Of a stretch of 42,211 nucleotides of DNA, positions 3,030 to 29,931 are shown piece after piece; within the stretch, counting starts at the first letter, position 1, and every line of letters starts with the position of its first letter. The stretch is from an uncultured Bacillota bacterium (lineage in GTDB: Bacteria > Bacillota_I > Bacilli_A > RFN20 > CAG-826). Both the position numbers and the translations under genes were made by a program. The DNA lies in the NCBI GenBank assembly GCA_949291655.1, contig CASEWT010000005.1:1-42211 (forward strand), written 5' to 3'. Under the pieces are notes generated by a model, which was not told the DNA's origin, searched no databases, and was given only the letters and a program-made list of their open reading frames with translations.

Positions 3030-3842
3030 ATGGGTTACGAAAACGACGCGGCAAGCTACATCGAACTCTCCCTTCACGAATGCGGAAGGGAGGAATGCCT
3101 GCCAGACAAAATCTTCCATTTCACCCCGAAGGAATACCACCTTTTCCATTACGTGCTGCACGGGAAGGGCATCTTCAGTTACAAAGGCCATGTCTACAAG
3201 CTGAAGCGGGGCGACATCTTCTACATTCCTCCGCGCGAGGTGCCCGTCTACCATCCCGACCCAAGCGACCCTTGGACCTACGAATGGATCGGCATCGGCG
3301 GCAGCCGGTCGACCGACCTCCTCAAGAAGGCCGGCATCTCCGGCGAGCGGCCGGTGTTCCACGACGACACCCTGGTTTACAAAACCCACTTCGACGCCAT
3401 CGTCAACGAGTACCTCTCGAAAGGCAAACTGAACCTCTATTGCCTCGGGCAAGCCTATTCTCTCTTTGGCCGTCTTTTCGGAAACGAACTGAAGTCCGAT
3501 GACCCGACGGTCCAGAAGACGGCCCACATCCTGGCGGCCAAAGAATACATCCACAACAATTACCAATTCGATATCAGCGTCGACGACGTGGCCAAAAACG
3601 TCGGCATTACCGCCAATTACCTGTCGAGTCTCTTCAAATCCTTCGAAGGGATGTCGACGAAGTTTTACCTCACCAAGGTCCGAATGGAAGTCGCGGCCAC
3701 CATCCTCCGTTCCGGGGCCTACCTCATCAAGGATGCCGGCGCGATGGTCGGCTACAAGAACCAGCTGCACTTCTCGAGCGAGTTCCGCAAGTACTACGGA
3801 ATGTGCCCGAGCGAATTTGCCAAAAAGGAGAAAAAGATATGA
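3030..3842 (+). CDS. AraC family transcriptional regulator of the galactan locus
   Basis: A 270-residue regulator. Residues about 15-110 form a cupin-like ligand-binding domain (HYVLHGKGIFSYKG, then a GDIFYIPP strand). Residues about 165-268 contain the double helix-turn-helix of the AraC/XylS family, ending with the classic VGYKNQLHFSSEFRKYYGMCPSEF. An AAAGGAA ribosome site precedes the ATG. The stop codon overlaps the start of the first galactanase gene (ATGA), so regulator and enzymes are translationally coupled. It most likely senses galactose or galacto-oligosaccharides and activates this operon; the ligand is inferred from context only. Confidence 0.92.
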   Translation: MGYENDAASYIELSLHECGREECLPDKIFHFTPKEYHLFHYVLHGKGIFSYKGHVYKLKRGDIFYIPPREVPVYHPDPSDPWTYEWIGIGGSRSTDLLKKAGISGERPVFHDDTLVYKTHFDAIVNEYLSKGKLNLYCLGQAYSLFGRLFGNELKSDDPTVQKTAHILAAKEYIHNNYQFDISVDDVAKNVGITANYLSSLFKSFEGMSTKFYLTKVRMEVAATILRSGAYLIKDAGAMVGYKNQLHFSSEFRKYYGMCPSEFAKKEKKI

Positions 3843-5962
3843 AAATCAGGCAAATCATCCCCCTCCTCGCCCTTTCTTCGGCCATCCTTTTATCCGGCTG
3901 CAACGGCGATGGCCCCGCGACGAGCGGCGCCTCCTCGGGCGGCGAAACGAACCTATCCTCGGGTGGGGGCGAGAGCCGCGAGGTAACCTTCGACTACGAG
4001 GAAGTCGCCTTCGAAAACACCTATGGCGAGGGCACCAACGACGAGAGCCACGACTACGATGGGCTCATCGTCAATCCTTTGACGAACGCTCTCCGGTCGG
4101 ATTTCGCCTACGGGGTCGACGCTTCGATGATCAGCGAGGTCGAGCGCCTCGGCGGCGTCTTCTACAACGAGGAAGGGAGAGAACAGGATATTTTCCAGAT
4201 CCTTGCCAACGACGGGGTCAACTTCTTCCGGGTCCGCCTTTGGAACAAGCCGAGCGACCGCTTTGGCCGCGGCTTCGGCGGCGGCAACAACGATGCGGCG
4301 ACCGACATCGAGCTTTGCAAGCGGGCCCAGGAAGTCGGGATGAACATCTGCGTCGACTTCCACTATAGCGACTTCTGGGCCGATCCCGACAAGCAGCAGA
4401 TTCCCCAGGAATGGCAGGCCTACGATGCCGAGGAAATCCCCGATCTCCTCCGTGACTTCACCGTCGAGACCCTCACCTCCTTCAAAGAGGCCGGGGTCGA
4501 GGTCGATGCCGTCCAGATCGGCAACGAGATCAACAACGGCATGATGGGCCGTTACGGAACGATCGACTGGAGCGACATGGACGGGAGCTTCGAATACATC
4601 TCTTCCCTCCTCAATAGCGGCATCCAGGGCATGAAGGAAGTCTTCCCGGATGCCTATTCGATCATCCATTTGGCCAACGGGACGAATGCCGACGAATTCG
4701 AGACCTACTTCTCCTACCTCGACCAAAACGGGGTTCCTTACGACATCGTCGGGGCCTCTTATTACCCAGCCCTCACCGGCGATCTCTCCCGCCTCCAGGA
4801 AAACCTCGACAACATCGCGGCGAAGACCGGCCATCCGGTCATGGTGATGGAGACCTCGTGGGGCTTCACCGACGACTATGTCGACGGGGTGACCGCGAAT
4901 TCCTACTCCGCCGAGGACGAGGACACCGGGGGCTACCTGACTTCCGAGCAGGCCCAAGCCACCTCCCTTCGCGACGTCCTCGACGTCCTTAGCCAAGTGC
5001 CCGACCAGATGGGTCTCGGCTGCTTCTATTGGGAGCCCTGCTGGCTCCCGGTGAGCCAAGACGGCGAAGTGGCCGGCTGGGCGAGCAAGTACGGGCAAAG
5101 CTATGCCGATTACGGCGACACGAGCCACAACTCCCTCTACACCGATGGCCTCGCGACTTGGTCCAACCAGGGCTGGTTCTCCTATAGCGGCAAGGAACTC
5201 GCTTCGGCCAAGGTCTACCGCCTCGTTCAGGAAGGCGGGGTCAACGCGACCGAAGAAGTTTCCCTCGCCGCCCGGGCCACGACTTATGAGGCGACGATCA
5301 ACCTCGCGGCCGACGAAACCCTCCCGGCGACCGGTCGGGTCGTGACCAACCTCGACGCCATCCGCGACGCCCCGGTCGTTTGGGACGAAGAAGAGGCGGC
5401 CGCCTGCGTCGAAGTCGGCGAATACGTCGTCCACGGCCTCCTCGACGGCCGTTACGAGGTCACCCTCAACGCTGAGTGCATCGAAAACTACATCGTCGAT
5501 CCCGGCTTTGAGCTGCAGGGCGGGAACGATTCCGTGAAGGATCCTTGGACCATTAGGAGCGTGTCTCCCGAGGGAGCCAAGATCGTGAAACTCGACCGGA
5601 AGAGCGATACCCGGACCGGCACGACCGACCTAAACTGGTACTACGGGGCCGGGGACTTCTCCTTCGACTTCTACCAAACCATCGAGAACATGCCGGCCGG
5701 AACCTACGACCTCACCACCTACCTCCTCGCCCCGAGCCAGAGCGATTTCGCCCAGGAACTCACTCTCTACGTGAGCATCGACGGGACGGAGACGACGCTC
5801 GATCTCTCGCCCCTCTGCGTCGGCTGGGGAAGAGGCTATCAGGAAGCCAACCTCCTCGGGCTTCAAATTTCGGAGGGGGCCACGCTTGAAGTCGGGATCC
5901 GCGGCGAATGCGCAAGCGCGGCTTGGGCCCATAACGACGACTGGAAACTCGTCAGGAGATAA
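3839..5962 (+). CDS. surface endo-beta-1,4-galactanase GH53 with C-terminal binding-type domain
   Basis: A 707-residue lipoprotein. A signal peptide ends in the lipobox LLSGC (Cys21), followed by a Gly/Ser-rich linker. The GH53 barrel covers about 88-460: LRSDFAYGVDASM starts it, QIGNE (226-230) carries the acid/base Glu230, and VMVMET (334-339) the nucleophile Glu338. A tryptophan-rich end (GCFYWEPCWLP) is typical of the family. After the barrel come a bacterial Ig-like segment (about 465-545) and a C-terminal beta-sandwich (about 550-707) that resembles galactan-binding modules such as CBM61. It should cut beta-1,4-galactan at the cell surface. AAGGAG precedes the ATG at 3839, which overlaps the regulator stop. 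The domain naming at the C-terminus is less sure than the GH53 call. Confidence 0.92.
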   Translation: MKIRQIIPLLALSSAILLSGCNGDGPATSGASSGGETNLSSGGGESREVTFDYEEVAFENTYGEGTNDESHDYDGLIVNPLTNALRSDFAYGVDASMISEVERLGGVFYNEEGREQDIFQILANDGVNFFRVRLWNKPSDRFGRGFGGGNNDAATDIELCKRAQEVGMNICVDFHYSDFWADPDKQQIPQEWQAYDAEEIPDLLRDFTVETLTSFKEAGVEVDAVQIGNEINNGMMGRYGTIDWSDMDGSFEYISSLLNSGIQGMKEVFPDAYSIIHLANGTNADEFETYFSYLDQNGVPYDIVGASYYPALTGDLSRLQENLDNIAAKTGHPVMVMETSWGFTDDYVDGVTANSYSAEDEDTGGYLTSEQAQATSLRDVLDVLSQVPDQMGLGCFYWEPCWLPVSQDGEVAGWASKYGQSYADYGDTSHNSLYTDGLATWSNQGWFSYSGKELASAKVYRLVQEGGVNATEEVSLAARATTYEATINLAADETLPATGRVVTNLDAIRDAPVVWDEEEAAACVEVGEYVVHGLLDGRYEVTLNAECIENYIVDPGFELQGGNDSVKDPWTIRSVSPEGAKIVKLDRKSDTRTGTTDLNWYYGAGDFSFDFYQTIENMPAGTYDLTTYLLAPSQSDFAQELTLYVSIDGTETTLDLSPLCVGWGRGYQEANLLGLQISEGATLEVGIRGECASAAWAHNDDWKLVRR

Positions 5963-5964
5963 AC

Positions 5965-7797
5965 ATGGCAAAACCCTTCATCCTCAACCTCGTCCACCGT
6001 CTCGAGCTTTCGCCGGAGTATTCCCAGAAAACCAACGGGGCCGGGGGTAAGGAGGACGCCTTCACCGGCGCCCTCACCTCCGAATCGGTCGAGATCTTCA
6101 AGACGCAGCAGCGCCTCGCCCACCTCAACGGGCTGAAGACGACGATCCAATTGACCTATGCCTCCCTCTTTTCCGACGAGTGCCTTGCCCTCGCCAAAGA
6201 AGACCACGAGAAGTACGGAGACGAAATCAGCCTCTCCCTCCTCGGCCTTCCCTGCCCCGAGTTCAAAAGCAAGTACAAGACCAAGGACTTCTGCATCTGG
6301 ATGTTCTCCGAGGAAGACAAGCGGGAGATCATCGACGACGTCTTTGCCCTCTTCAAGGAGAAGCTCGGCTTCTATCCTCATAGCACCGGAAGCTACTACC
6401 TCGATGCCTATTGCCTCAACTACATCCATGAGAAGTACCCCTCGGTGAAGGCGGCGGTGGCCACCTGCTTCGAAGAAGGCCCGAAGGCTTACCATACCTG
6501 CAACAACTCCTGGTACACCTTCCTCGACGGCGGTCCTTGGAACCCGTGGATCCCGAGCAAGGAGAACACCCATTGCCCGGCCTCTAACGCGGAAGACGAC
6601 TGCGGCATTGTCTGCATTCCCCACCTCTCGCGCGATGTCATGGCTTGCTTCGACGGGAACGGCAGCAACTTCGGCACCCATCCCCAGAACGTCCTTCGCG
6701 GGATGATTTACGACGACAAGCGCCGGATTCCTTATCTCTATAACCTCATCGACCAGTACCGCCACCTCGGGAAATGGAACCGCTACGCCTACAACATGAT
6801 GTTCGTCGGGCCGGGCTGGATGAACCGCTCGGGCCGCTGGGAGGTTCCTTACGAGGGCCTCTACAAGAGCTATGAGGACGCGATGCGTTACTACGGCAAA
6901 CTCAAGAAGGAAGGGCTTCTTATCGACATGACGATGGAGGAGTTCGCCTCCTTCTACCGGGAAGGCCTCGATTACCAAGAGCCCGAACGCTGCCTTTGGA
7001 AAGACATCCTCTACGGATCGAGCAAGCAGTACTTCTGGTATCTCGACCCCCATTTCCGGACGTGTCTCGACATGAACCAGGGCGGGGCGATGATCGACCT
7101 TCGGCCCTATGCTGCCAAGCTCCCTTGGAAGGTCGGGATCGGGACCCGCTCGGTCTACGATGCCAGCTATCCTTACCTCATCCAAGCCAACTACCGGGCC
7201 GGCTACTTCACCCATTATGCCGGGGAAGGGACCGTCAAATCCTACAAGGTCAAGCACGGCAGCGAGGCCTACGACGGCTGCCTCCAGCGGACGATGGCCC
7301 GCTGCGAGGTCCTGCCGAACGGGGACACCCTCCTTACCCTTGACCCGGTGACCTTCGTCTTCTCCGACCTCCGCTGCGAGATCGTTTCCCGTTTCCTTTT
7401 CAAGAAAGGGGAGGGGAAAATCGAGATCACCAGGGAAATCGCGAAGATCGAAGGGGAAGGCGAAGTCGAGATCGAGGAGTATCTCACCGGGGCCTTCGGC
7501 ATCAACGAATACCAAAGCGACATGAGCCGCATCGTCCTCATGAGCGAAGGCGAGAGCGGCCGCCAGGAAATCCGCTACGCGTATAAGTGCCGCGCCCTCC
7601 ACGAAGAAAAAGCCTCGCAAATCGCGGCTCTAATTCCCGATGTCGATACCCTTCTTGCCATGGGGAGCGAGGAAAAGGTCGCCGGAAGCGTCGAGGAAGG
7701 CTATGCCTTCTCGCCCTGTTACCGCCTTGCCCTCAGCAAGAAATTCGTTAGCAAAGGAGAACTAAGGACATGGCTCAGTCTAAGAAAGGCAAGCTGA
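5965..7797 (+). CDS. uncharacterised 610-aa cytosolic protein of the galactan operon, deacetylase/GH57-like barrel suspected
   Basis: I do not recognise this protein with certainty. It has no signal peptide and so should be cytosolic. Residues about 1-330 look like a NodB/polysaccharide-deacetylase or GH57-like barrel: YASLFSDECLALAKEDHEKY, then EISLSLLG, then LGFYPHSTGSYYLDAYCLNY resembles the conserved strand-turn order of that fold. The motif FGTHPQN (236-242) contains a candidate catalytic or metal-binding histidine. Residues about 390-600 are rich in beta strands (EVEIEEYLTGAFG) and may form a beta-sandwich. A barrel followed by a sandwich is common in glycosidases. It starts 2 nt after the galactanase stop, with CAGGAG upstream, and overlaps the next gene by 28 bp. 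I infer a carbohydrate-active enzyme acting on imported galacto-oligosaccharides; the reaction is unknown. Confidence 0.75.
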   Translation: MAKPFILNLVHRLELSPEYSQKTNGAGGKEDAFTGALTSESVEIFKTQQRLAHLNGLKTTIQLTYASLFSDECLALAKEDHEKYGDEISLSLLGLPCPEFKSKYKTKDFCIWMFSEEDKREIIDDVFALFKEKLGFYPHSTGSYYLDAYCLNYIHEKYPSVKAAVATCFEEGPKAYHTCNNSWYTFLDGGPWNPWIPSKENTHCPASNAEDDCGIVCIPHLSRDVMACFDGNGSNFGTHPQNVLRGMIYDDKRRIPYLYNLIDQYRHLGKWNRYAYNMMFVGPGWMNRSGRWEVPYEGLYKSYEDAMRYYGKLKKEGLLIDMTMEEFASFYREGLDYQEPERCLWKDILYGSSKQYFWYLDPHFRTCLDMNQGGAMIDLRPYAAKLPWKVGIGTRSVYDASYPYLIQANYRAGYFTHYAGEGTVKSYKVKHGSEAYDGCLQRTMARCEVLPNGDTLLTLDPVTFVFSDLRCEIVSRFLFKKGEGKIEITREIAKIEGEGEVEIEEYLTGAFGINEYQSDMSRIVLMSEGESGRQEIRYAYKCRALHEEKASQIAALIPDVDTLLAMGSEEKVAGSVEEGYAFSPCYRLALSKKFVSKGELRTWLSLRKAS

Positions 7798-8033
7798 ATT
7801 ACCGCTGCCCCTCGTGCTTCATCCGGGACATCGACATCGACATGTTCTACGACGAGGAAAAGAAGGAATACTACTGCCTCCGGTGCTGCTTCCACGGGAG
7901 TGAGGAGGAGGTCCTTCGCCTCAACGAAGTCCTGAAGTTCCGCTACAAGTGGATGGAAAAGCGGGTCCTCGATTTCGGGGAGGACAACAAGCCGGCTAAA
8001 GCCGTCGATTATGACGGCGGGGAAGAAAAATGA
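7770..8033 (+). CDS. small zinc-ribbon protein
   Basis: An 87-residue protein with two CxxC knuckles, C13/C16 (CPSC) and C36/C39 (CLRC), 19 residues apart, which is the layout of a rubredoxin-like zinc ribbon. The tail (about 45-87) is charged and probably helical, then disordered. Its start lies inside the end of the 610-aa gene (28 bp overlap) and is preceded by AAAGGAGAACTAAGGAC; its stop overlaps the ATG of the cytosolic galactanase. Such tight coupling implies matched synthesis with these enzymes. The function is unknown: nucleic-acid binding, redox sensing and a subunit or chaperone for a neighbouring enzyme are all possible. Confidence 0.8.
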   Translation: MAQSKKGKLNYRCPSCFIRDIDIDMFYDEEKKEYYCLRCCFHGSEEEVLRLNEVLKFRYKWMEKRVLDFGEDNKPAKAVDYDGGEEK

Positions 8034-9139
8034 AGCTCGGCGTCGATCTTTCCACCTATCTCGAGGAGAAAGCCTTCGGGGCCAAGTGGTACCTCGACGG
8101 CACCGAGGTCGACCCGCTGGAAGCCTTTCGGCGGAACGGCGTCGACTACCTCCGCCTCCGGGTCTGGAACAACCCCTACGGGAAAAGCGGCTCCCCCTTC
8201 CTCGGCGGTACCTCCGACCGCGGGAAGCTCCTCGAGCTCGCCCTCAAGGGCAAGGAACTCGGCTACGCCATCGTCGTCGATTTCCACTATAGCGACTTCT
8301 GGTGCGACCCGGCGAAGCAATTCCTCCCCCGGGCCTGGGAAGGGCTCGATATGGATGGGGTGAAGGCGGCTTTGCGGAAGTTTACCGCCGAGACGCTGCT
8401 CTCGCTCAAGGACGTTGGGGTCGAAGTCCACGGCGTCCAGATCGGGAACGAAATCACCAACGGCTTCCTCTGGCCCTTGGCCAAGCTGAACGGGACGGTC
8501 CCGAACCGGACGGGCTACGAAGCCCTATCCGTGCTTCTGAAGGAAGGCGCCTCGGCGGTCAAAAGCGTCTACCCGGACGCCCGTCTCATCCTCCATCTCG
8601 AGAATAGCGGCAACCGCCCCATCCTCGACGAATGGTTCTCCAGAATCAGCGAGCTCGGGGTTCCTTACGACGTCATCGGGCTCTCCTATTACCCCTATTG
8701 GCACGGGAGCATGGCGAACTTCTTCGAGAATGCCACTTATCTGAAGGGCAAGTTCAAGAAGGAGGTCGCCGTTATGGAAACGGGCTTCGCCTTCACCCTC
8801 GCGGACTACGAAAGCGGGGCCAAGGCGCCCCAGCTTGTCGTCAACGAGGAGGTTGCCGCCAAGATGAAGGAAAGCCTTCCCTACGAGTGCACGAAGGAAG
8901 GGCAGCGCCTCTACGTCCATGACTTCCTCGAGCGCTCGCGGGAAGCCGGCGTGAGCGAAGTCTACTACTGGGAGCCGGCCTGGATCCCGGTCAAGGGGGC
9001 CGGCTGGGCTTCCCTCGAGGGACAGGCCTACGTCCGCCAAGCCGAGATCAAGGAGACCCGGAACGAGTGGGCCAACCAGATCCTCTTCGATTACGAAGGC
9101 GAGGCCACCCCCGCCTTCGGCGAATTCAAAAACAATTGA
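8030..9139 (+). CDS. cytosolic GH53 endo-beta-1,4-galactanase
   Basis: A 369-residue single-domain GH53 enzyme with no signal peptide: the barrel begins at residue 2 (KLGVDLSTYL). VQIGNEITNG carries the acid/base Glu141 and VAVMETGF the nucleophile Glu250. YYWEPAWIPVKGAGW near the end is the family's conserved aromatic stretch. The start codon overlaps the stop of the zinc-ribbon gene (ATGA). GH53 enzymes are normally secreted, so an intracellular copy beside a sugar importer suggests it trims imported galacto-oligosaccharides, a job done by GH42 beta-galactosidase in the Bacillus subtilis gan operon. That role is inferred from localisation and context. Confidence 0.9.
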   Translation: MKLGVDLSTYLEEKAFGAKWYLDGTEVDPLEAFRRNGVDYLRLRVWNNPYGKSGSPFLGGTSDRGKLLELALKGKELGYAIVVDFHYSDFWCDPAKQFLPRAWEGLDMDGVKAALRKFTAETLLSLKDVGVEVHGVQIGNEITNGFLWPLAKLNGTVPNRTGYEALSVLLKEGASAVKSVYPDARLILHLENSGNRPILDEWFSRISELGVPYDVIGLSYYPYWHGSMANFFENATYLKGKFKKEVAVMETGFAFTLADYESGAKAPQLVVNEEVAAKMKESLPYECTKEGQRLYVHDFLERSREAGVSEVYYWEPAWIPVKGAGWASLEGQAYVRQAEIKETRNEWANQILFDYEGEATPAFGEFKNN

Positions 9140-9155: not shown

Positions 9156-10379
9156 ATGAAAAAAGCCATCAAAGTCGTCTTCCCGGTCCTTGCGGCCGCC
9201 TCCATCCTCGCTTCCTGCACCCCTGACTCCACGACCGGCGGGAGCGGCACGACGACCCTCCTCGTCTGGGAAGACGCGAGCAACATCCCGACCCTCGAGA
9301 CGATTGCCGAGTACTTCAAGGCCGACTACAAGCGCGCCTACCCCCTTGCCCCGGACATCGAAATCCGTTTCGAGGCCCGGAACGAAGCGGCGGCGGTGAG
9401 CGACCTCCTGACCATCGGCGAGTCGGGCGAAGGGCCCGACATCGCGGCCATCACCTCGGACACCCTTGCGACGGCCGTCCGGAGCAATCTCGTCGCCCCG
9501 GCCACCTACGACGAGGAAATCAAGAACTGCTTCGAGCCGGAAATCGTAAGCAACGTCACCATCGACGGGGAGGTCTATGCCTACCCGATCACCTCCGAGT
9601 CGCAGACGATCATGTACGACCGGAGCAAGGTTGAGGATCCTTCTATCTTCGATAGCTTCGATGCCCTTCTTGCCTCTGGCGAATCCATCGCCTGGGACGT
9701 GAACGACGAGGATTGCGCCTATTATTGCTTCGGCTTCCTTACCGATGCCGACCTCTTCGGAGAAGACGGGACCGATGCCTCGAGCCTCAATCTCGACACG
9801 GAGAAAGGCGCCCAGAACCTCCTCGATGCCTTCACGACCTACCGCTCGGCGATTACCCCGGCCGCCCCGGAAACGGCTGCCGCCCTCCTTGCCGCCGGCG
9901 AAGTCGCCGGCATCGTCACCTCCCCGTTTCTCTACCAGACCCTCGCCAATAGCATCGGCGAGGAAAACGTCGGCCTCCATAAGCTTCCGACCATCAACGG
10001 GGAAGAGATGCGTCCCTTCTCCGGCTACAAGGAGTACGTCGTCTCGACCTACAGCAGCCAGCCGGCCCTTGCCCAGATGTTTGCCAACTACATCGTGAAC
10101 CCGGATAGCCAGATCCAGCGGATGCTCGACCTCAACTACCTCCCGACCCGTTACGACGGGGACGTCAACGAGTTCCTTGGAGAGAACGAGATCCTCGAGG
10201 TCTACCAAGAATCCTACGACCTCTCCAAGCCGATGCCGACGATCGAGCAGATGGGCTACTACTGGTCGCCGATGATCAACTTCTGCGAGCAGATGTGGAA
10301 CGCCGGGACCGCCCTTACCCTCGACCAAGTCAAAACGGGCCTTCAGGAAGTCGAAGACACGATTAAAGGCAACGACTGA
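9156..10379 (+). CDS. ABC transporter sugar-binding lipoprotein (galacto-oligosaccharide type)
   Basis: A 407-residue extracellular solute-binding protein of the maltose/oligosaccharide type. The signal peptide ends in ILASC with lipidated Cys21. The mature part opens with TTLLVWEDASNIPTLETIA, typical of this family, and continues with PDIAAITSD and GEVYAYPITSESQTIMYD, which matches the ligand-cleft strand seen in MalE-like proteins. GGAAAGGAGATTAGC precedes the ATG. It is followed directly by the two permease genes. Given three GH53 enzymes in the operon, the ligand is most likely a beta-1,4-galacto-oligosaccharide, as for GanS of Bacillus; that specificity is inferred. Confidence 0.9.
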   Translation: MKKAIKVVFPVLAAASILASCTPDSTTGGSGTTTLLVWEDASNIPTLETIAEYFKADYKRAYPLAPDIEIRFEARNEAAAVSDLLTIGESGEGPDIAAITSDTLATAVRSNLVAPATYDEEIKNCFEPEIVSNVTIDGEVYAYPITSESQTIMYDRSKVEDPSIFDSFDALLASGESIAWDVNDEDCAYYCFGFLTDADLFGEDGTDASSLNLDTEKGAQNLLDAFTTYRSAITPAAPETAAALLAAGEVAGIVTSPFLYQTLANSIGEENVGLHKLPTINGEEMRPFSGYKEYVVSTYSSQPALAQMFANYIVNPDSQIQRMLDLNYLPTRYDGDVNEFLGENEILEVYQESYDLSKPMPTIEQMGYYWSPMINFCEQMWNAGTALTLDQVKTGLQEVEDTIKGND

Positions 10380-12148
10380 TGAAGCAGGAAGCCGTTAAGA
10401 CATATCGGCCCACGAGCTTCGCTGAACGCGTCGCCTCCTCCTTCCGTTCCTGGAAGGAAACCTTCAAGGCGACCGACGGCCTCGGGAAGGCGGGGATGCT
10501 CGTCAATCTCCCCCTTCCCGGCCTCGGCACCGCTCTCCTCGGCCGCTTGGAGAAAGGCCTTCTCGCCTTCCTTGCCTATTTCTTCGTCTTCTTCCTCGCC
10601 GTCTACGTCGGAATCCAAAGGGGAAGCGGGGTCCAGCTCGATTCCTTCTCCATGGCCATTCTCTATCTCGTTTTGGTTTTGGCCCTGGCCTTCATGTTCG
10701 TCTCGGCCTTCCTTACCTCGATCGAGAAGGGGCGGGAACGGGCCCTCGATCCGCATCGCTACTACCTCGAAAGCATCTTCCAACATGGCTTCTTCTCCCT
10801 CGTCAAGGGAGCGAGGAAATACTTTGCCGATTACCGGGAGGCCTATGAAAAGGGGAACAAGAAGGAGCAAACCCTTCTCCTTTCTTCTTGGTTCATCATG
10901 GGAGTGAGCGAACTCGGCTACCGCCAGTTCGTCCGGGGCCTCGTCTACCTTCTTTCGGAAGCCGGGGTCCTCATCTATCTCATCCTCCGCGGTTTCTATG
11001 ACATCGGGGTCCTCGTTCGATTGAACGTCCTTTCTTCCCCGAACGGGGCTTTCGTCTATGGCATCATCGCCATCTTCCTCGTCGTCTATCTCGCCTTTGC
11101 CTATTTTTCCCACCTGAAGACGTCCCTCGCCCTTACGAAGGCCGAGCAAAAGGGCAAAGCGGAGACGCCGCGCGGAGAGCTTTCCTCCCTCATCAACGAC
11201 CGTTTCTCGGTCGTCGGGCTCACGATCCCGGTCCTCGGGGCCATCGCCTTCACCATCATCCCGATCACCTTTATGATCCTCACGGCCTTCACCAACTATT
11301 CCCTTACGACGGTGAACGGCTACGACAACTATTCGCCCCATCTAGGGATTCCCCTTCATTGGAGCGGCCTCGAGGCCTTCGAGCGGCTCTTCGCCAATAG
11401 TTCCTCCCTCGTCGACATGGTCAACGTCTTCGGCTGGACGATCGTCTGGGCGAGCGTGGCGACCTTCACCTGCTACTTCGGCGGCCTCCTCTTGGCCCTA
11501 TTGCTCAACAAGAAAGCCGTCAAGGGCAAGGTCGTCTACCGCTCGATCTTCGTCGTGGCGATGGCCCTTCCCCAGTTCGTCTCCCTCCTCGTCGTCCGTT
11601 CGATGTTCGAGCGTTACGGCATCGTGAACAACATCCTCATGAACCTCGGCTGGATAACCGAGCGCTTCGACTTCTGGGCCGACGGGACGTGGGCGAAAGT
11701 CCTCATCCTCCTCGTCAACATGTGGGTCGGCATTCCCTATTACATGCTTCTTATGAGCGGCCTTCTCCTCAACATCCCGAATGATCAATACGAGGCCGCG
11801 GACATCGAAGGGGCGACCGGTTGGCAGAAGTTCACCTCGATCACCTTCCCGGAAATCTTCTTCATGACGACCCCGGTCCTCATCACGAGCTTCGTCAACA
11901 ACATCAACAACTTCAACGTCATCTGGTTCCTGACCGGGGGCGGTACCGTCTCGACGATCTCGGGGACGGCCGGGAACACCGACATCCTGATCACCTGGCT
12001 TTACAAGCTGACCTTCCAGGCCGGGGCGGCTCCCGACTATAACCTCGCGGCCGTCGTCGGGATCATCATGTTCGTCATCTCGGCTACCTGCTCCCTTGTC
12101 ATCTTCCAGCGCTCGAAGGCCTATAGGGCCGAGGAGGAATACCGCTAA
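10379..12148 (+). CDS. sugar ABC transporter permease, MalF type with N-terminal membrane extension
   Basis: A 589-residue inner-membrane permease. The conserved binding-protein-dependent transport domain occupies about residues 280-585, and the EAA loop that docks the ATPase is YEAADIEGATGWQKF (471-485) followed by FPEI. The first 270 residues hold several additional hydrophobic segments (for example LLAFLAYFFVFFLAVYVG and AFVYGIIAIFLVVYLAFAYF) joined by a charged loop; MalF-type proteins often have N-terminal additions, but this one is long. The start overlaps the previous stop (TGATG). It forms the membrane channel together with the next gene. No ATPase is encoded nearby, so a shared MsmX-like ATPase elsewhere is expected. 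Confidence 0.92.
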   Translation: MKQEAVKTYRPTSFAERVASSFRSWKETFKATDGLGKAGMLVNLPLPGLGTALLGRLEKGLLAFLAYFFVFFLAVYVGIQRGSGVQLDSFSMAILYLVLVLALAFMFVSAFLTSIEKGRERALDPHRYYLESIFQHGFFSLVKGARKYFADYREAYEKGNKKEQTLLLSSWFIMGVSELGYRQFVRGLVYLLSEAGVLIYLILRGFYDIGVLVRLNVLSSPNGAFVYGIIAIFLVVYLAFAYFSHLKTSLALTKAEQKGKAETPRGELSSLINDRFSVVGLTIPVLGAIAFTIIPITFMILTAFTNYSLTTVNGYDNYSPHLGIPLHWSGLEAFERLFANSSSLVDMVNVFGWTIVWASVATFTCYFGGLLLALLLNKKAVKGKVVYRSIFVVAMALPQFVSLLVVRSMFERYGIVNNILMNLGWITERFDFWADGTWAKVLILLVNMWVGIPYYMLLMSGLLLNIPNDQYEAADIEGATGWQKFTSITFPEIFFMTTPVLITSFVNNINNFNVIWFLTGGGTVSTISGTAGNTDILITWLYKLTFQAGAAPDYNLAAVVGIIMFVISATCSLVIFQRSKAYRAEEEYR

Positions 12149-13029
12149 TGGCTAGCAAAGTGGCATCAAGGAAGGAAACGTCCCTCCGCCGGAGCCGGAT
12201 CGTCGATGCGGTCTGGAGCAACGCCCTCGTCATTCTCCTCGCCGTCCTTTGGCTCATCCCGGTCATCTACGTCATCCTCTTCTCCTTCAGCGACCAGAAG
12301 ACCTTCATCCTGGCCGACAGCATCCTTCCGACCGGCTATACCATCGACAACTACATCCGCATCTTTACCGAGGAAGACCGGATCATCATGTTCCCCCATT
12401 GGTACGGGAACACCTTGATTCTCTCCCTCTGCAACTGCCTCCTCGTCACCTTCTTCACCGTCCTCACGGCTTTCATCCTCTCCCGTTTCCGGTTCAAGGG
12501 CAGAAAGGCCCTCATGAACATCACGATGGTCCTCGGGATGTTCCCGGGGTTCATGTCGATGGTGGCGGTTTACCTTATCCTCAGCCTCCTCGGGCTCCTT
12601 GGCTCCTACTGGGCGATGCTCGTCTATTGGGTAGCTGGAGCGGGGCTCGGCTACTTCGTGACGAAAGGCTATTTCGACACCATCTCCAATGACATCGACG
12701 AGGCCGCAAAGCTCGACGGAGCCTCCCAAGCCCGCCTCTTCTTCCAGATCTATATCCCCTTGGCCAAGCCGGTCATCATCTACACGGCCCTCATGGCCTT
12801 CATGAGTCCCTGGGCCGATTACATCCTTTCCTCGATCGTCATCTCGAGCAATGAGGCCCGGACGATCGGCTATGGACTTTATAACCTCATGACCCCCGAC
12901 AACATCAACATCTACTTCACCCGTTTCTGCGCGGCCAGCGTCATCGTCGCCGTGCCGATCGTGGCCCTCTACATTGGGCTTCAGCGCTTCTTCGTCGCCG
13001 GGATCGCGGCGGGGGCCGTCAAGGGGTAA
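12148..13029 (+). CDS. sugar ABC transporter permease, MalG type
   Basis: A 293-residue permease with about six membrane segments, the first at residues 25-47. The EAA loop reads DEAAKLDGASQARLF (184-198) followed by the family's IPLAKP. GYFVTKGYFDTI just before the loop is typical of MalG proteins. The start codon shares bases with the stop of the MalF-type gene, and translation is probably coupled. It completes the importer that brings galactan fragments into the cell. The specificity is inferred from the operon. Confidence 0.93.
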   Translation: MASKVASRKETSLRRSRIVDAVWSNALVILLAVLWLIPVIYVILFSFSDQKTFILADSILPTGYTIDNYIRIFTEEDRIIMFPHWYGNTLILSLCNCLLVTFFTVLTAFILSRFRFKGRKALMNITMVLGMFPGFMSMVAVYLILSLLGLLGSYWAMLVYWVAGAGLGYFVTKGYFDTISNDIDEAAKLDGASQARLFFQIYIPLAKPVIIYTALMAFMSPWADYILSSIVISSNEARTIGYGLYNLMTPDNINIYFTRFCAASVIVAVPIVALYIGLQRFFVAGIAAGAVKG

Positions 13030-13033
13030 AGGC

Positions 13034-14743
13034 ATGAAAAAAGCTTGTTTGTTCCTCTTTCCCCTTTTGGCCTTGTCTTCCTGCGGGGGCTTGAGCGAAA
13101 GCTCCTCGGGCGGGGAGGCGGCCTCTTCAAGCGAAGCTCCCTCTTCTGAGGTCGCTTCCTCCTCGGAAGGAGACGCCTCTTCGTCCTCTTCGAGCCAGGA
13201 ATCGCTGCAAAAAGCCCTCAAAATAGACGATATCGACAATATCCTCGTCTACTATGGACTCCTTGACGGCTCGGCGCCCTTCGCGCCGGTCGCCCCGGTC
13301 GTCAAAGACGCAGAGGGTAATGTCGTTCCCCTCGATGAGGTGATCTTTTCCTACGAAGGGGACGACATCCGTTACGAAAACGGCGGCTTCATCGGCCTTC
13401 GGGGCGGCACTTCGACCGAAGTGACGGCCACCTCGAAGGACGGGGCAACCGGGACTTTCGAGGTTAGCGTCTATAACCGGGACTACCGGGAAAGGCACGA
13501 AGAAGCGGCCATCGAGGAAGGGTGGTACGGGGACGTCGACATCGATCCCGTCGCTTCCCTCGATGAAGGCTTTGCAAGCGGCATCGACATTTCCTCCTCG
13601 CTATCCATCTATGAATCGTGCGGGAGGTACTACGGTGCCTTCTACAACGAAATCGGGGAGGAGCAGTCCCTCTTCCAGATCCTTGCCGATAACGGAGTTA
13701 ACTGGGTCCGGCTTCGCCTCTGGGTCGATCCCTACAATTACACCCTCCTCGACGAAGACGGGAACCCGACGCCATACGGCGGCGGCATCTGCGATTATGA
13801 CCACGTTGAATGGATGGCTCATGAAGCCAAGATGGCGGGGCTAAGTGTCCTCCTCGACTTCCATTACAGCGACTTCTACACCGACCCAAGTAACCAAGTC
13901 ATACCGAAGGCTTGGGCCGACATCGCCACGGCCGGCGAAATGGGGGAGCAGATTTACGAATATACGAAATCGACCCTCGAAAGCCTATTGGCGGCTGATG
14001 CCCTTCCCGATGCCGTCGCCCTCGGCAACGAGACGACGACAGGGATGCTTACCCAGCTTCCGGGGACCGACGGGGCTGCCCTTACGGGCGATAACCCCGG
14101 CTACATCACCGGGAAAAGAAGCGCTCCCTCGAGCGTTGCCGGAACGGCTTATGGCGACAACTTCCGCCTTTACCTCCAAAAGGCGAATCAAGCCGTCAAG
14201 GACGTCGACGCGGATATCCTCACGATGGTCCACATGGCCCGGGGCCTTACGGCGACCGACAATATCATCGGCTACTTCGAGGACCTTTCCGCCATCGACT
14301 TCGACATCGTCGGCCTTTCGGGCTACGTCTACTATCAATGGCAAAACCCCTCGACCCTCCGAAAGGCCCTTGGCGAGATTGCCTCGGCCTTCCCAAGCAA
14401 GATGATCTCGATTGCCGAGCATAGCTACGGCTTCACCTACGAAGCCGACGCCCAAGGCAGCTTCACTTTCTCCGACTACCCCGATTCGGTTGCCGGACCC
14501 GTGAGTTCCTACGAGGTTTCGATCCAAGGCCAAGCCGAGTGCATCCGCGACGTCACGGAAGCCGTCTCCGACCTTGAAAACGGCTGGGGCGCCTTCTATT
14601 GGGAAGGGGCTTGGCGGATTCGGGCCGGGTGCGGCTGGGCCGACAGTCGCTCGAAGAACTCCTGGGCCAACCAAGGCCTCTTCTCCTACGACGGCAAGGC
14701 GCTCGGAAGCCTTCGGGCCTATTCCCTGATGTGGGGAAACTAA
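13034..14743 (+). CDS. second surface endo-beta-1,4-galactanase GH53 with N-terminal Ig-like domain
   Basis: A 569-residue lipoprotein starting at 13034; an in-frame ATG at 12974 lies within the permease gene and is rejected because the signal peptide MKKACLFLFPLLALSSC begins here and lipidated Cys17 follows. Residues 18-56 are a Ser/Glu/Ala-rich spacer. Residues about 63-150 look like an Ig-type domain. The GH53 barrel runs from about 180 to 560, with acid/base Glu333 (ALGNETTTG) and nucleophile Glu462 (SIAEHSYGF). It has inserts around the active site (residues 340-375) that the other two copies lack, which may alter the cleft. The spacing to the permease stop is 4 nt. It likely attacks galactan or arabinogalactan at the surface. 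Confidence 0.9.
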   Translation: MKKACLFLFPLLALSSCGGLSESSSGGEAASSSEAPSSEVASSSEGDASSSSSSQESLQKALKIDDIDNILVYYGLLDGSAPFAPVAPVVKDAEGNVVPLDEVIFSYEGDDIRYENGGFIGLRGGTSTEVTATSKDGATGTFEVSVYNRDYRERHEEAAIEEGWYGDVDIDPVASLDEGFASGIDISSSLSIYESCGRYYGAFYNEIGEEQSLFQILADNGVNWVRLRLWVDPYNYTLLDEDGNPTPYGGGICDYDHVEWMAHEAKMAGLSVLLDFHYSDFYTDPSNQVIPKAWADIATAGEMGEQIYEYTKSTLESLLAADALPDAVALGNETTTGMLTQLPGTDGAALTGDNPGYITGKRSAPSSVAGTAYGDNFRLYLQKANQAVKDVDADILTMVHMARGLTATDNIIGYFEDLSAIDFDIVGLSGYVYYQWQNPSTLRKALGEIASAFPSKMISIAEHSYGFTYEADAQGSFTFSDYPDSVAGPVSSYEVSIQGQAECIRDVTEAVSDLENGWGAFYWEGAWRIRAGCGWADSRSKNSWANQGLFSYDGKALGSLRAYSLMWGN

Positions 14744-25412: not shown

Positions 25413-25455
25413 GCAAATGAAAAGCCGGTTTCCGATGTGAGACCGGCATTTTGCA
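25413..25455. terminator. bidirectional terminator between yhaM and the HIT gene
   Basis: AAAAGCCGGT and ACCGGCATTTT (stem GCCGGT 25424-25429, ACCGGC 25442-25447) give T-runs on both strands between convergent genes. Confidence 0.8.
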
Positions 25456-25466
25456 TAGGTTTTTGC

Positions 25467-25883
25467 CTATTTGAGTCCCTGGGAAATGTCCTTGGCGAGG
25501 GCCGGGAGGTTGAGGGTGGAAGAGTCCATGGCCTTCATCTCGAGTTGGAAGCCGCCTTCCCCGCGGACATAGCGGGGAATGACATGGACATGGAAGTGGG
25601 GGACGCTTTGCCCGGCCATTTCGCCGACGTTGGTGAGGATATTGATGCCTTTGGCGCCAAGAACGGCGATCTCGGCTTGGCCAATCCGCTGGGCGACGTC
25701 CATCACTTTGTGGAGGAGGTCTTTCGGGACGGAGAGGAAATCCTGGTAATGGGCCTTCGGGATGACGAGGCAGTGCCCCTTGGCAACCGGGGAGACGTCA
25801 AGGATGGCGACGACCTCGTCGTCTTCATAGACCTTGCTCGAGGGGAGTTCCCCTTCGACGATGCGGCAGAATACGTCTTTCAT
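25467..25883 (-). CDS. HIT-family protein, Hint-like nucleotide hydrolase
   Basis: A 138-residue histidine-triad protein that probably hydrolyses adenosine phosphoramidates or related nucleotides. The triad is VPHFHVHVIPR, with His98 the expected nucleophile, and the N-terminal CRIVEGELPSSKVYEDD is typical. AGGAG stands 6 nt before the ATG. It follows the large lipoprotein genes on the minus strand, after their terminator; a TATAAT (25924-25929, minus strand) lies just before that hairpin and might be its own -10 box. Confidence 0.94.
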   Translation of the reverse strand: MKDVFCRIVEGELPSSKVYEDDEVVAILDVSPVAKGHCLVIPKAHYQDFLSVPKDLLHKVMDVAQRIGQAEIAVLGAKGINILTNVGEMAGQSVPHFHVHVIPRYVRGEGGFQLEMKAMDSSTLNLPALAKDISQGLK

Positions 25884-25902
25884 GGCTTTCTCCTAAAGGA
25901 AA

Positions 25903-25922
25903 GGGGCAGGTTGCCCTGCCCC
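25903..25922 (-). terminator. terminator after the large lipoprotein genes
   Basis: GGGGCAGG and CCTGCCCC form a perfect 8-bp stem with a four-base loop, followed on the minus strand by TTTCCTTT. Confidence 0.8.
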
Positions 25923-25940
25923 CATTATATTCCTTCTTCC

Positions 25941-27758
25941 TCAGTCGTAGATGTCCGGGAAGGTCGAGACGAAGTAGTCGTAGACATAGGTGTCGTGGAA
26001 GATGACGCCCATGAGCTCGACGTAGTAGGCATTGCTCGACGAGGTCCAGGTATCGCTCGAGGAGAGAAGGTAGCCGATCGTCCGGAGAACATAGTCAGCG
26101 AAGCTCGAAGTTTCCTCGGCGTGGGCCGGGAGCTCATCGTAGTACTGGTCGCCGTAGCTCTCGTTGACCTTGGCCCGCTTCACCGCCTCCTCGACGACGG
26201 TGATGTAGTAGGTGCCGTCGGAGAGGTAGATGTATGGGTACTCGTTCGAGGTGTCGTAGGTCTCCGGGAGGAGATAGTAGTTGCCGTTGCGGTAATAGCC
26301 GTAGTCGAGGTCGGCATTTTCGTACTTCCCATCGACGTAGGACACGCTGTCGACTTCGTTGGCGACCCGGGTGTCGAAGAGGACGCTCGAGAGCGGGTAG
26401 CTGTCGTCCATGGCGGAGGAGTTGGCATACCAGCCGTTGGTCGTGTGGTCTTCGGCCTGAAGGGTGTTCGTCTTGATGTCGAAGCCGGTTTGGACGCTAT
26501 AGGCGCCGCTGTTGGTGAAGTCGCTCCGGACGCTCGTGTCGTCGAGGAAGCGGTTGTTCCAGACGGCCGTGCCGCCATCCATCGTGATGAGCTTTTGGAG
26601 ATTGTCGAGGATGGTACCAAGAGCCGAGGGGCTGTAATACTGGATGGTATCTTGGCTCCACGGGAGGGTGATGGTCTTCAGACCGCCGCGGTCGGCGTTG
26701 TCCCAGCCGGCCTCGTCGTAGATGTTCCGGGCCATTTCCATCGTCTCGGCGTCCCACGTCTCGTAGGAGAAGTCGTAGCCTTGGTAGAGGGCATCGAGGA
26801 AGTTGAGGTCGTACTTTTCGACATCGGCGCTCGAATTCTCGATGACGAGCTTGCTATAGGCCGTGAGAAGGTCGCTTACGGCGCCCGGATAAGCGGTGGA
26901 CTCCGGAAGGGCGATGTAGCTGACTTCCCGGGCCGAGGAAAGCTCGAGGGTCGAGCGGTTGACCGTGTAGAGATATTCGACGGTCAGCTCGTTCCGGTAG
27001 ATATCCGGAAGGACGGTCGCGTCGATGTAGTTCTCGTAGGTGCCGAAAATGTCCTTGAAGTAGGCATTGGCGATGTCCCCGTCGTGGTCTTTGTTGCCGC
27101 CGTCGAGGATGCGCGTGGCGCTAGGATCCTCGTCGATGGCATCGGTCAGGACGTAGGTGCCGAGGATCTGGGTGTAATCCTCGTTATAGGGAGCAATGCC
27201 GTTTTCTTCTTGGGCCAGGTCGTAGTAACTGGCGATCTGGGCATCGTAGAACTTCTTCTCGACGAAGCGGGAACGGTCCTGATAGGTCGTGTCGTTCACG
27301 TAGCCGAGGAAGACGGTCCGGATGCGGAAGAGGACATCCTGGTAGAAGGAGACGACTTTGCTGCTGACCCCATGGCCTTCGGCATCATGGTAGGCCGGGT
27401 AGGTATCGGCAAAGGCCTGGATGGCCGTTTGGTCGCCGCTTTCGACGGTGCTCCGGAGCCCGGCAACGACGGTGCCGTCGGCCGCCGTGGTGTCGAAGAA
27501 GTTCCCGTAAACGGACGTCGCGTAGATATAGAGGACGTTGTTGAGAACGCGCTCGGAGTTCGTGTCGCCCGAGGAAACGAGAGCGTCGTAGATCTCGCCC
27601 AGCCGGTTCTGGTAGAGCCCGTCGTCGGCCAGGTTGAGGATCGGGGAATCGTAGGTTTCCGGCGTCGGAAGAGCCTCGAAGTCGTCGCAGCCCGCAAGGA
27701 TGAGGGACGCGCTGGCGAGAAGCGCCAGGAACAAGGGTTTCTTTTTATTGAGCGTCAT
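25941..27758 (-). CDS. large lipoprotein of unknown function, foldase-operon partner
   Basis: I cannot assign a function. It has 605 residues from the ATG at 27758; an upstream ATG (27773) lacks a ribosome site, whereas GGAG stands 9 nt before 27758. The signal peptide ends LILAGC (Cys24). The mature protein is acidic and very rich in Asp, Tyr, Ser and Thr. Its first helix-rich stretch (LGEIYDALVSSGDTNSERVL) looks like the corresponding region of the parvulin-type lipoprotein encoded just upstream (EFDRVYEVLVRNYYND), so the two may be distant paralogs. No parvulin motif is apparent. The start overlaps the upstream gene by 14 bp. It may be a degenerate PrsA-like chaperone. Confidence 0.7.
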   Translation of the reverse strand: MTLNKKKPLFLALLASASLILAGCDDFEALPTPETYDSPILNLADDGLYQNRLGEIYDALVSSGDTNSERVLNNVLYIYATSVYGNFFDTTAADGTVVAGLRSTVESGDQTAIQAFADTYPAYHDAEGHGVSSKVVSFYQDVLFRIRTVFLGYVNDTTYQDRSRFVEKKFYDAQIASYYDLAQEENGIAPYNEDYTQILGTYVLTDAIDEDPSATRILDGGNKDHDGDIANAYFKDIFGTYENYIDATVLPDIYRNELTVEYLYTVNRSTLELSSAREVSYIALPESTAYPGAVSDLLTAYSKLVIENSSADVEKYDLNFLDALYQGYDFSYETWDAETMEMARNIYDEAGWDNADRGGLKTITLPWSQDTIQYYSPSALGTILDNLQKLITMDGGTAVWNNRFLDDTSVRSDFTNSGAYSVQTGFDIKTNTLQAEDHTTNGWYANSSAMDDSYPLSSVLFDTRVANEVDSVSYVDGKYENADLDYGYYRNGNYYLLPETYDTSNEYPYIYLSDGTYYITVVEEAVKRAKVNESYGDQYYDELPAHAEETSSFADYVLRTIGYLLSSSDTWTSSSNAYYVELMGVIFHDTYVYDYFVSTFPDIYD

Positions 27759-29931
27759 AGTAGCAAGCTCCATTGTTGGTCCAGGTTTCGTCTTTGTCGA
27801 TCTGCCCGTACTGGACGGCGCAGTGTTCGGAGATAAGCGTACCGGTCATCGTGCTGGATCCCTGGCTCCGGGCCTCGTCTTGGGCTTGGAGAAGCTCGGC
27901 ATAGGTAAGCCAGTTGGTCTTCCACGTCTCGAAGTTGTCGTCGGTGGTCGATTGACGGGAGGTCCGAACGTAGGTTTGGAGATCCTTTTCGACGCCGGCG
28001 TCGGCAAACTCGATCTTGGCCCCGTCGCTTGAGGAGGTTCCGTCGACCAGAGACTGGAACTGGAAGCTCGTCAGGTTGTCGTTGTAGCCGCGGATCTCGC
28101 TGACGAGATTGCTCGACCGGGTGTTCTGGGTGCTCGTCTGGGTTCCCTGGTAGGTGACGAAAGTGCTGAGGTCGTTGCCTTCGCTATCCGTCGGGTAGGA
28201 GGAACTGGAAGTGGTGTAGGTCGTGTAGTACTGGCTGAGGGTAGCCGTGCCATCGGTCGCCGCGGCGTTCTCGACGTATTCCGTCTGGCCGTCCTTCGGG
28301 CTGCTCGGGTCGCTGATCGTTGTGGCGCTGAGCCCGTATTGGGAAAGGGCCGAGCGGTTGATGACGATGAAGTGGACCCCTTGGTAGCTGTCGGTGCCGG
28401 CCCGGACGACGAGGACGACCTGGCCTTCGCTATTGGTCAGGACATTGTCGTTTTGGGAGCCGTTGATGCCGGGGAGGATGTCCGTGGTATCGACTTGGAA
28501 GCCCGGGAGCGAGGCGAAGAAATCGCTATGGGCGCCTTCGTAGTTCTCGCCGGTGACGTAATAGGTATCGGAAACGGTGTTGGTCGCCTGCTGGCCCGCC
28601 GTGACGATGTCGTTGCTTCCGATCGTCGTGGCAATCTGCGAAAGGGTGTTCATCTCGATGGCGTTCGGGGTGATGACGCAGACATTGTGGCGGTTGAAGT
28701 ACTTATTGAAGATGATGTTGCGCGGATAGAAGATCGCGTTGTTGTCGTTGACCCGGTTGCCGTTTTGGTCGGTGTCGACGTCGCTATTCTCAAGAAGGGC
28801 GAGGGCCGCGCCGAAGGGGATGGTCCCGATTCCCTTGTTGGTGAAATACTCGTTGACCGTTTCGCCGCTGCTCAGCGTTTGAGTATCGTCGACATCCGAA
28901 GTGGAGGCCGCGTCCTCGGTGAGCCCCGGGGTGATCCGGTAGACGTTTTCCGAGCCGTAGGTTGTCCCCTTTTCCCGTTGGTTATATAAGGATTCGTACG
29001 CGTAGATGCCGAGCTTGAACTCGTTGACGAGGTCGCTGTCCATGACCTTGGTCATAAGGCCGGTGGAGCTATCGGTGGCAAGTTCGCCGCCGTTGGCCGC
29101 CGAGCCGGTATCGCCCGAGAACTGGGCCGCCAGCTGGCTGAAGGTCGGCCGGTTGGTCAGGGTCTGGAGACGCTCGTTGACGCCGGCCAAGCGGAGGATC
29201 AAGGTCGCGAGGTTGGTCGCTTCGCCGCCGCCGTTTTCGCCGGTTTCGGTAATCGTGTCCTGCGTGTAGTTGCCGCTCGTGGCGCTCGTGAGGCTGATGA
29301 GAATGTGGCGGATGTGGTAGGGCATCTGTTCCTTCAGATAGCCGGCATCGCCGCGGCCCCATTCTTCGCTCTCCGGGAAAGCGGCCCGGGTCTCGCCGTC
29401 GATGGTGAGTTCGCCATCGCGCATGACTTCGGTTCCGTTGATGCTGCTATCGCCGGTGCCGAAAGTGGCGTAGAAGTCGTCGAGGAAACGGGACTGCTCT
29501 TCCTGATAGAGGTGATATTGGTAGAGCTCATCGGCGTTTTCGCAATCGTGCGAATTGAGAATCGTCTGCCATTCCTGCTCGAAGGTCGTGCCGTTGCTCG
29601 AAGCGTTGCTCGTGGCGGTTTGCTTGTCGGTAATGACATCGGCGCGAGCCCTGTCTTCAAGCGTCCTCAGGACGCTGGCTTGCGAGGGGTCGTTGTAATA
29701 ATTCCGGACCAAAACCTCGTAGACGCGATCGAACTCGGTGCTGAGCGAACTCCCGTCGTCGAGATAGTCATCCAGAAGCTGCTCGGCGGTATAGCTAACG
29801 CGATTGCCTTGGGCGTCGGTGTAGGTAAGAACACTTCCGTCCGTCGTCTCCGTCGGGTAGTTGCACGCCGAGAGACCAACGGTGACACCAAGCAACAGAG
29901 CTAGGCCGAGGGCACTTCTTTTTTTGTTCAT
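27745..29931 (-). CDS. PrsA-like lipoprotein with parvulin-type peptidyl-prolyl isomerase domain
   Basis: A 728-residue lipoprotein, about twice the usual PrsA length. The signal peptide ends VGLSAC (Cys23). Residues 60-155 resemble the helical chaperone region of PrsA/SurA. A parvulin-like domain starts at YHIRHILISL (205-214) and includes FSQLAAQFSGDTGSAANGGE, the hallmark of the PPIC family, but with long Thr/Asn/Ser-rich inserts. GVHFIVINRSA, further on, may be its last strand. It should help secreted proteins, such as the large galactanases, fold outside the membrane. The start at 29931 fits the signal peptide; the nearest AGGAGG is an unusually long 16 nt upstream. An operator-like palindrome lies in its promoter. 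Confidence 0.78.
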   Translation of the reverse strand: MNKKRSALGLALLLGVTVGLSACNYPTETTDGSVLTYTDAQGNRVSYTAEQLLDDYLDDGSSLSTEFDRVYEVLVRNYYNDPSQASVLRTLEDRARADVITDKQTATSNASSNGTTFEQEWQTILNSHDCENADELYQYHLYQEEQSRFLDDFYATFGTGDSSINGTEVMRDGELTIDGETRAAFPESEEWGRGDAGYLKEQMPYHIRHILISLTSATSGNYTQDTITETGENGGGEATNLATLILRLAGVNERLQTLTNRPTFSQLAAQFSGDTGSAANGGELATDSSTGLMTKVMDSDLVNEFKLGIYAYESLYNQREKGTTYGSENVYRITPGLTEDAASTSDVDDTQTLSSGETVNEYFTNKGIGTIPFGAALALLENSDVDTDQNGNRVNDNNAIFYPRNIIFNKYFNRHNVCVITPNAIEMNTLSQIATTIGSNDIVTAGQQATNTVSDTYYVTGENYEGAHSDFFASLPGFQVDTTDILPGINGSQNDNVLTNSEGQVVLVVRAGTDSYQGVHFIVINRSALSQYGLSATTISDPSSPKDGQTEYVENAAATDGTATLSQYYTTYTTSSSSYPTDSEGNDLSTFVTYQGTQTSTQNTRSSNLVSEIRGYNDNLTSFQFQSLVDGTSSSDGAKIEFADAGVEKDLQTYVRTSRQSTTDDNFETWKTNWLTYAELLQAQDEARSQGSSTMTGTLISEHCAVQYGQIDKDETWTNNGACYYDAQ

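Follow-up and report, generated by a model that had tools for sequence, protein, structure and literature searches.

A galactan-linked 610-residue protein and its overlapping zinc-ribbon gene: a putative two-subunit cytosolic glycosidase

A protein of 610 residues, encoded in a galactan operon of an uncultured Bacillota bacterium, does not stand alone, as the gene of a small zinc-ribbon protein, here termed ZnR, accompanies it in every close relative examined. There is about an even chance that the two form a two-subunit cytosolic glycosidase for galactan fragments. A wider proposal, which we hold to be somewhat less probable than that, is that the pair represents a new glycoside hydrolase family. 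Its activity would depend on ZnR as a separate subunit whose translation is coupled to that of the large chain, and it would comprise two or more substrate branches, one linked to galactan and one to GH29. The physical complex, the catalysis and the substrate of the pair are what we infer from the evidence given below. If true, the pair would carry out the final step of galactan use in Bacilli with small genomes. It would also be a glycosidase needing a tiny zinc-ribbon subunit, and a function screen with the large protein alone could then give a false negative.

The galactan operon and the gene pair

The window, i.e., the whole stretch of 42,211 nucleotides that was analysed, contains the following galactan genes:

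3030 to 3842, + strand: AraC-type regulator, with which the cluster opens (PF02311, E 2.6e-18; PF12833, E 3.2e-17)
3839 to 5962, + strand: GH53 endo-beta-1,4-galactanase with a lipoprotein-like N-terminus (PF07745, E 5.5e-101; Big_4); the ORF opens at 3803 and the likely ATG is at 3839
5965 to 7797, + strand: the 610-residue protein, predicted (AlphaFold2 and structure search) to consist of a (beta/alpha)7 barrel (residues 1-338) and a mutarotase-like beta-sandwich (339-610)
7770 to 8033, + strand: ZnR, a zinc-ribbon protein of 87 residues; its first 28 nt lie within the 3' end of the large gene (-1 frame), and it shares 4 nt with the GH53 gene that follows
8030 to 9139, + strand: GH53 without a signal peptide, judged from the N-terminus (PF07745, E 1.5e-88)
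9156 to 10379, + strand: ABC solute-binding lipoprotein, distantly GanS-like (PF13416, E 1.2e-22; NF053763, E 3.8e-29, below the cut-off of that model)
10379 to 12148, + strand: MalF-type permease (family search)
12148 to 13029, + strand: MalG-type permease (family search)
13034 to 14743, + strand: GH53, lipoprotein-like by its N-terminus (PF07745, E 1.8e-74); the ORF opens at 12974 and the likely ATG is at 13034

This is one operon with three GH53 paralogues, of which one is apparently cytosolic. The three paralogues suggest that the shortening of galactan chains takes place outside the cell and also within it, the enzyme at 8030-9139 being presumably the cytosolic one. AraC homologues occupy the same position in relatives, and a three-GH53 arabinogalactan locus has been described in R. 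hominis and R. faecis (PMC5320581). Elsewhere in the window, at 25437-27836, an ORF of 799 residues with no Pfam match lies downstream of glycosyltransferase genes.

The large gene is an intact ORF running from ATG to TGA. An earlier reading of this DNA, made from the sequence only, had placed it between two GH53 genes, which is borne out (3803-5962 and 8030-9139, both PF07745). It had also described the product as lacking a signal peptide. On inspection, the N-terminus is indeed not signal-peptide-like, and the protein looks cytosolic. The description of the ORF as unrecognised was likewise confirmed: it is a conserved gene for which searches of Pfam, NCBIfam and PHROGs gave no family match, and even at E 10 the Pfam search returned noise only. 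Neither the GH1, GH2, GH35 and GH42 beta-galactosidase models of Pfam nor, apart from noise, the GH57 model of Pfam/NCBIfam matched it. A sequence search of the PDB found nothing, and a profile of the protein retrieved 3lm3 only, weakly (E 0.23 and 1.1). Literature searches for the family, or for a GH53-linked protein of unknown function, also found nothing.

The gene is kept as a gene across many Bacilli and Clostridia genomes. Close copies (59-94% identity) are present in 9 of 97 related genomes besides its own, together with one distant copy. When 84,980 species genomes were scanned, at least 556 relatives were obtained among 592 candidates, and 80 were kept; those listed are mostly from Lachnospiraceae, Clostridium and uncultured Bacilli. 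Viral contigs contained none, and plasmids gave two weak partial matches. Hundreds of mostly gut-associated bacteria have the large gene, most often beside galactanases, and neither protein of the pair is named by the family models searched.

The single-protein view taken in the sequence-only reading was incomplete, as it missed the overlapping ORF of ZnR, which is present in all 92 close-relative loci (the window, L002-L010, L012-L091, L096 and L097); some of these are the same genome twice (e.g., L002/L012 and L005/L013), so the independent genomes are slightly fewer. ZnR starts 28 nt inside the 3' end of the large gene, in the -1 frame, behind an SD-like motif. The ATG and the overlap of exactly 28 nt are found in every one of these loci, and the SD-like motif in 90. 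The exact overlap may be partly frozen because both ends are coding, and the universal retention of ZnR is the stronger point. Its two cysteine pairs (C13-x2-C16 and C36-x2-C39) are invariant in the aligned relatives. In the window and its four nearest relatives, dN is 0.03-0.15 against a dS of 0.3-3, a ratio by which ZnR is judged to be under purifying selection. A -1 frameshift fusion of the two genes was considered and rejected, as inspection by eye showed no classical slippery site and ZnR carries an ATG and an SD-like motif of its own.

The association also holds when approached from ZnR. In 395 genomes of the class, its matches fell in exactly the six where a close copy of the large gene also occurs, plus one weak match (36%, in G293), which was set aside as it contains a stop and the large gene is not nearby. 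Among 299 genomes around Roseburia (Lachnospiraceae), 40 have ZnR, and the large gene is directly upstream in all 40, being frame-interrupted in one. Plasmids yielded no ZnR and viral contigs one fragment. A diverged pair was found in G626 (locus L185), with a large protein 35% identical (E 1e-117), a ZnR 29% identical with the same cysteines, and an overlap of 31 nt by ORF coordinates.

Predicted fold, conserved loops and candidate catalytic residues

Two AlphaFold2 models of the large protein were obtained (pLDDT 77.9 and 83.0; pTM 0.83 and 0.87). In the structure search, residues 1-338 aligned with NodB/CE4 and GH57 barrels (Z 17-20), and residues 339-610, in the better model, with galactose mutarotases (Z 17-20). 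The NodB/GH57-like barrel and beta-rich C-terminal half that had been proposed from the sequence were hence recovered, and a carbohydrate-active fold is supported. A shared fold is no demonstration of function. The top structural match is 3LM3 (BDI_3119 of Parabacteroides distasonis; residues 2-489, Z 25.9-29.5, 374 and 371 residues aligned), an unassigned structure titled 'putative glycoside hydrolase/deacetylase', with an identity of only 14-16%.

CE4-fold chains stand among the top barrel matches (Z about 18-20; 1z7a, 3cl6 and 3qbu at 19-20), and this favours the suggestion that the protein is a CE4-type deacetylase for acetylated galactan fragments. However, the metal triad of that family, i.e., the motif-1 Asp and the motif-2 H[ST]xxH, is present in 0 of the 92 relatives, and the deacetylase is scarcely credible.

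The barrel is of the same class as those of the GH57 and GH38 glycosidases, and it gives a Z of about 17-18 to several GH57 chains. The GH38 enzyme Bl_Man38C aligns over the full length of the model, though with an rmsd of 21. Unlike the members of these families, the protein has no Pfam match and does not conserve the GH38/GH57 first-strand motifs: the metal-binding H-x-D of GH38 occurs somewhere in 13 of the 92 relatives and is not conserved at strand b1. In GH57, the nucleophile is a Glu on b4 and the acid/base an Asp on b7; here, judged from the strands of the model, b4 has D147 and b7 (275-281) has no acidic residue. The solved glycosidases of this fold class act mostly on alpha-linkages, a point against the explanation preferred here. 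We know of no separate small subunit in GH57 or GH38.

Three positions hold an acidic residue in all the aligned relatives: D147, E170 (Asp in one ZnR-less relative) and D224. In the model, they follow strands b4, b5 and b6, respectively, and may be regarded as candidate catalytic residues.

In the first model, the pLDDT of three loops of the large protein, 169-191, 231-247 and 397-421, was under 50. The first two were still low in the second model, where the third shrank to 410-419. These loops are very highly conserved (mean modal frequency 0.95, 0.98 and 0.91, against 0.79 in the rest of the protein), a comparison that is suggestive and not blind, as they were picked for their low pLDDT. 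The low values may merely reflect near-invariant columns without covariation. The diverged protein of L185 keeps the loops (14/23, 8/17 and 11/25 identical, whereas the identity over residues 1-168 and 422-610 is 28%). In two ZnR-less relatives, near which ZnR was looked for and not found, the loops are largely lost, the identities being 4/23 and 2/23, 1/17 and 2/17, and 3/25 and 6/25. The loops are likely to be a docking or active-site region. In the glycosidase proposed here, the large chain would supply the barrel of GH57/GH38 class and the beta-sandwich, while ZnR, from its overlapping and probably translationally coupled gene, would dock on these loops and complete or order the active site.

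Small zinc-finger proteins are known as obligate partners of some enzymes: in McsA-McsB, acetone carboxylase gamma and BbsA-BbsB, a small zinc protein is likewise encoded beside the larger enzyme that needs it. None of these is a carbohydrate-active enzyme of the present fold, and homology of ZnR to the three partners is unsupported (McsA, weak, E 2.0). Zinc ribbons are common among nucleic-acid binding proteins, and ZnR gives weak matches to the ribbons of TFIIB and DnaG. These speak for ZnR as a regulator or chaperone that shares the transcript without being a subunit, which is compatible with whatever function the large protein has. Yet ZnR tracks the large gene and not the GH53/ABC operon. 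It occurs at loci that have no GH53 and, in the diverged pair, beside different genes; close to the ZnR-less relatives, whose proteins lack the loops, none was found. Such a role is judged to be distinctly unlikely.

Neighbours and possible role of the pair

Co-occurrence with GH53, a check suggested along with the original annotation, was examined in 79 of the 80 kept loci, those where the gene caller found the large gene (the mis-called L012 was left out). GH53 lies within the fetched flanks (~10 kb) in 72 of the 79 and is the next called gene in 55, by the gene-calling used. Other galactan and arabinogalactan genes were also linked, and many loci carry GH42, GH2, galK/galT, LacI and ABC genes.

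In the proposed pathway, the lipoprotein GH53 enzymes would release galacto-oligosaccharides, the ABC transporter would import them and the cytosolic GH53 would shorten them. The pair would then hydrolyse the products to free galactose, feeding the Leloir pathway. GH42 and LacZ-type GH2 beta-galactosidases hold the same position, at the intracellular end of galactan breakdown, and are often encoded alongside the pair in relatives; their fold is unrelated to that of the 610-residue protein. A family search covering the beta-galactosidase families GH1, GH2, GH35 and GH42 only was run on 12 Bacilli genomes with the pair: GH42 and GH35 gave no match in any, GH1 is present in 3, GH2 in 11 and galactokinase in 12. 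It had been claimed that the locus encodes no beta-galactosidase. This stands for the galactan locus, but the genome itself has three GH2 matches elsewhere (one below the cut-off), and none for GH1, GH35 or GH42. GH173, a further candidate for the missing beta-galactosidase, was set aside as it belongs to clan GH-A (PMC8810776).

The idea that the pair stands in for the missing beta-galactosidase fits G204 best. This genome of 0.8 Mb (96% complete) has no match to GH1, GH2, GH35 or GH42; it carries the pair together with GH53 genes, and galK-galT-galM lie nearby. Genome incompleteness, or a galactosidase family other than these four, could still account for this. In other relatives, GH42 or LacZ-like GH2 adjoins the pair, so replacement of a beta-galactosidase cannot be its sole role, and a further enzyme with plain beta-galactosidase activity would be superfluous in such loci, which counts against the two-subunit enzyme acting on galactan fragments.

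A phosphorylase or another non-hydrolytic enzyme (epimerase or transglycosylase) acting on galactobiose might be suspected from the C-terminal half, which resembles galactose mutarotase. The galactose-mutarotase fold accompanies glycosidases too. Galactokinase in all 12 genomes, as well as galK-galT-galM near the G204 galactan locus, points to free galactose, and hydrolysis is therefore favoured over phosphorolysis. The phosphorylase offered in the sequence-only reading is thus disfavoured, and we consider the whole non-hydrolytic group highly unlikely.

GH53 was searched genome-wide in seven genomes and gave no match in four (C. tertium, C. nigeriense, L042 and Diplocloster L091). As these carry the large gene, beta-1,4-galactan cannot be the sole substrate. 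Their copies adjoin GH36-like genes or, in C. tertium, a PL27-like homologue of a gum-arabic rhamnose-glucuronate lyase (5no8, E 1.6e-116), and PL27 acts on gum arabic (PMC8377490). The pair might, then, remove a sugar that caps (arabino)galactan or belongs to its side chains, such as a terminal arabinose or another substituent, and leave the beta-1,4-galactosyl bond alone. Its occurrence next to GH42/GH2 beta-galactosidases, the PL27-like and GH36-like neighbours of some copies and the diverged pair beside GH29 all agree with this. In G204, however, some enzyme should cleave galactobiose, as no GH1/2/35/42 match is present. We rate this specificity as unlikely, though by no means far-fetched.

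The diverged pair appears to represent a second, different substrate branch. Within the 15 kb fetched around it, GH29, Gfo/Idh, zinc dehydrogenase, xylose-isomerase-like and ABC genes were seen, and no GH53 was noted. At L185 6004-7203 and 7255-9167 (G626:C4), the pair adjoins genes of an alpha-L-fucosidase (GH29), a Gfo/Idh oxidoreductase and an isomerase.

A distant ZnR-less relative of 789 residues, with chitobiase-C and F5/8 C domains, is encoded at L098 286-2655 (G118), beside a gene of 904 residues which reads like GH38, and is possibly another branch of the superfamily. A profile comparison of the 610-residue family with a GH38-like neighbour gave no usable alignment.
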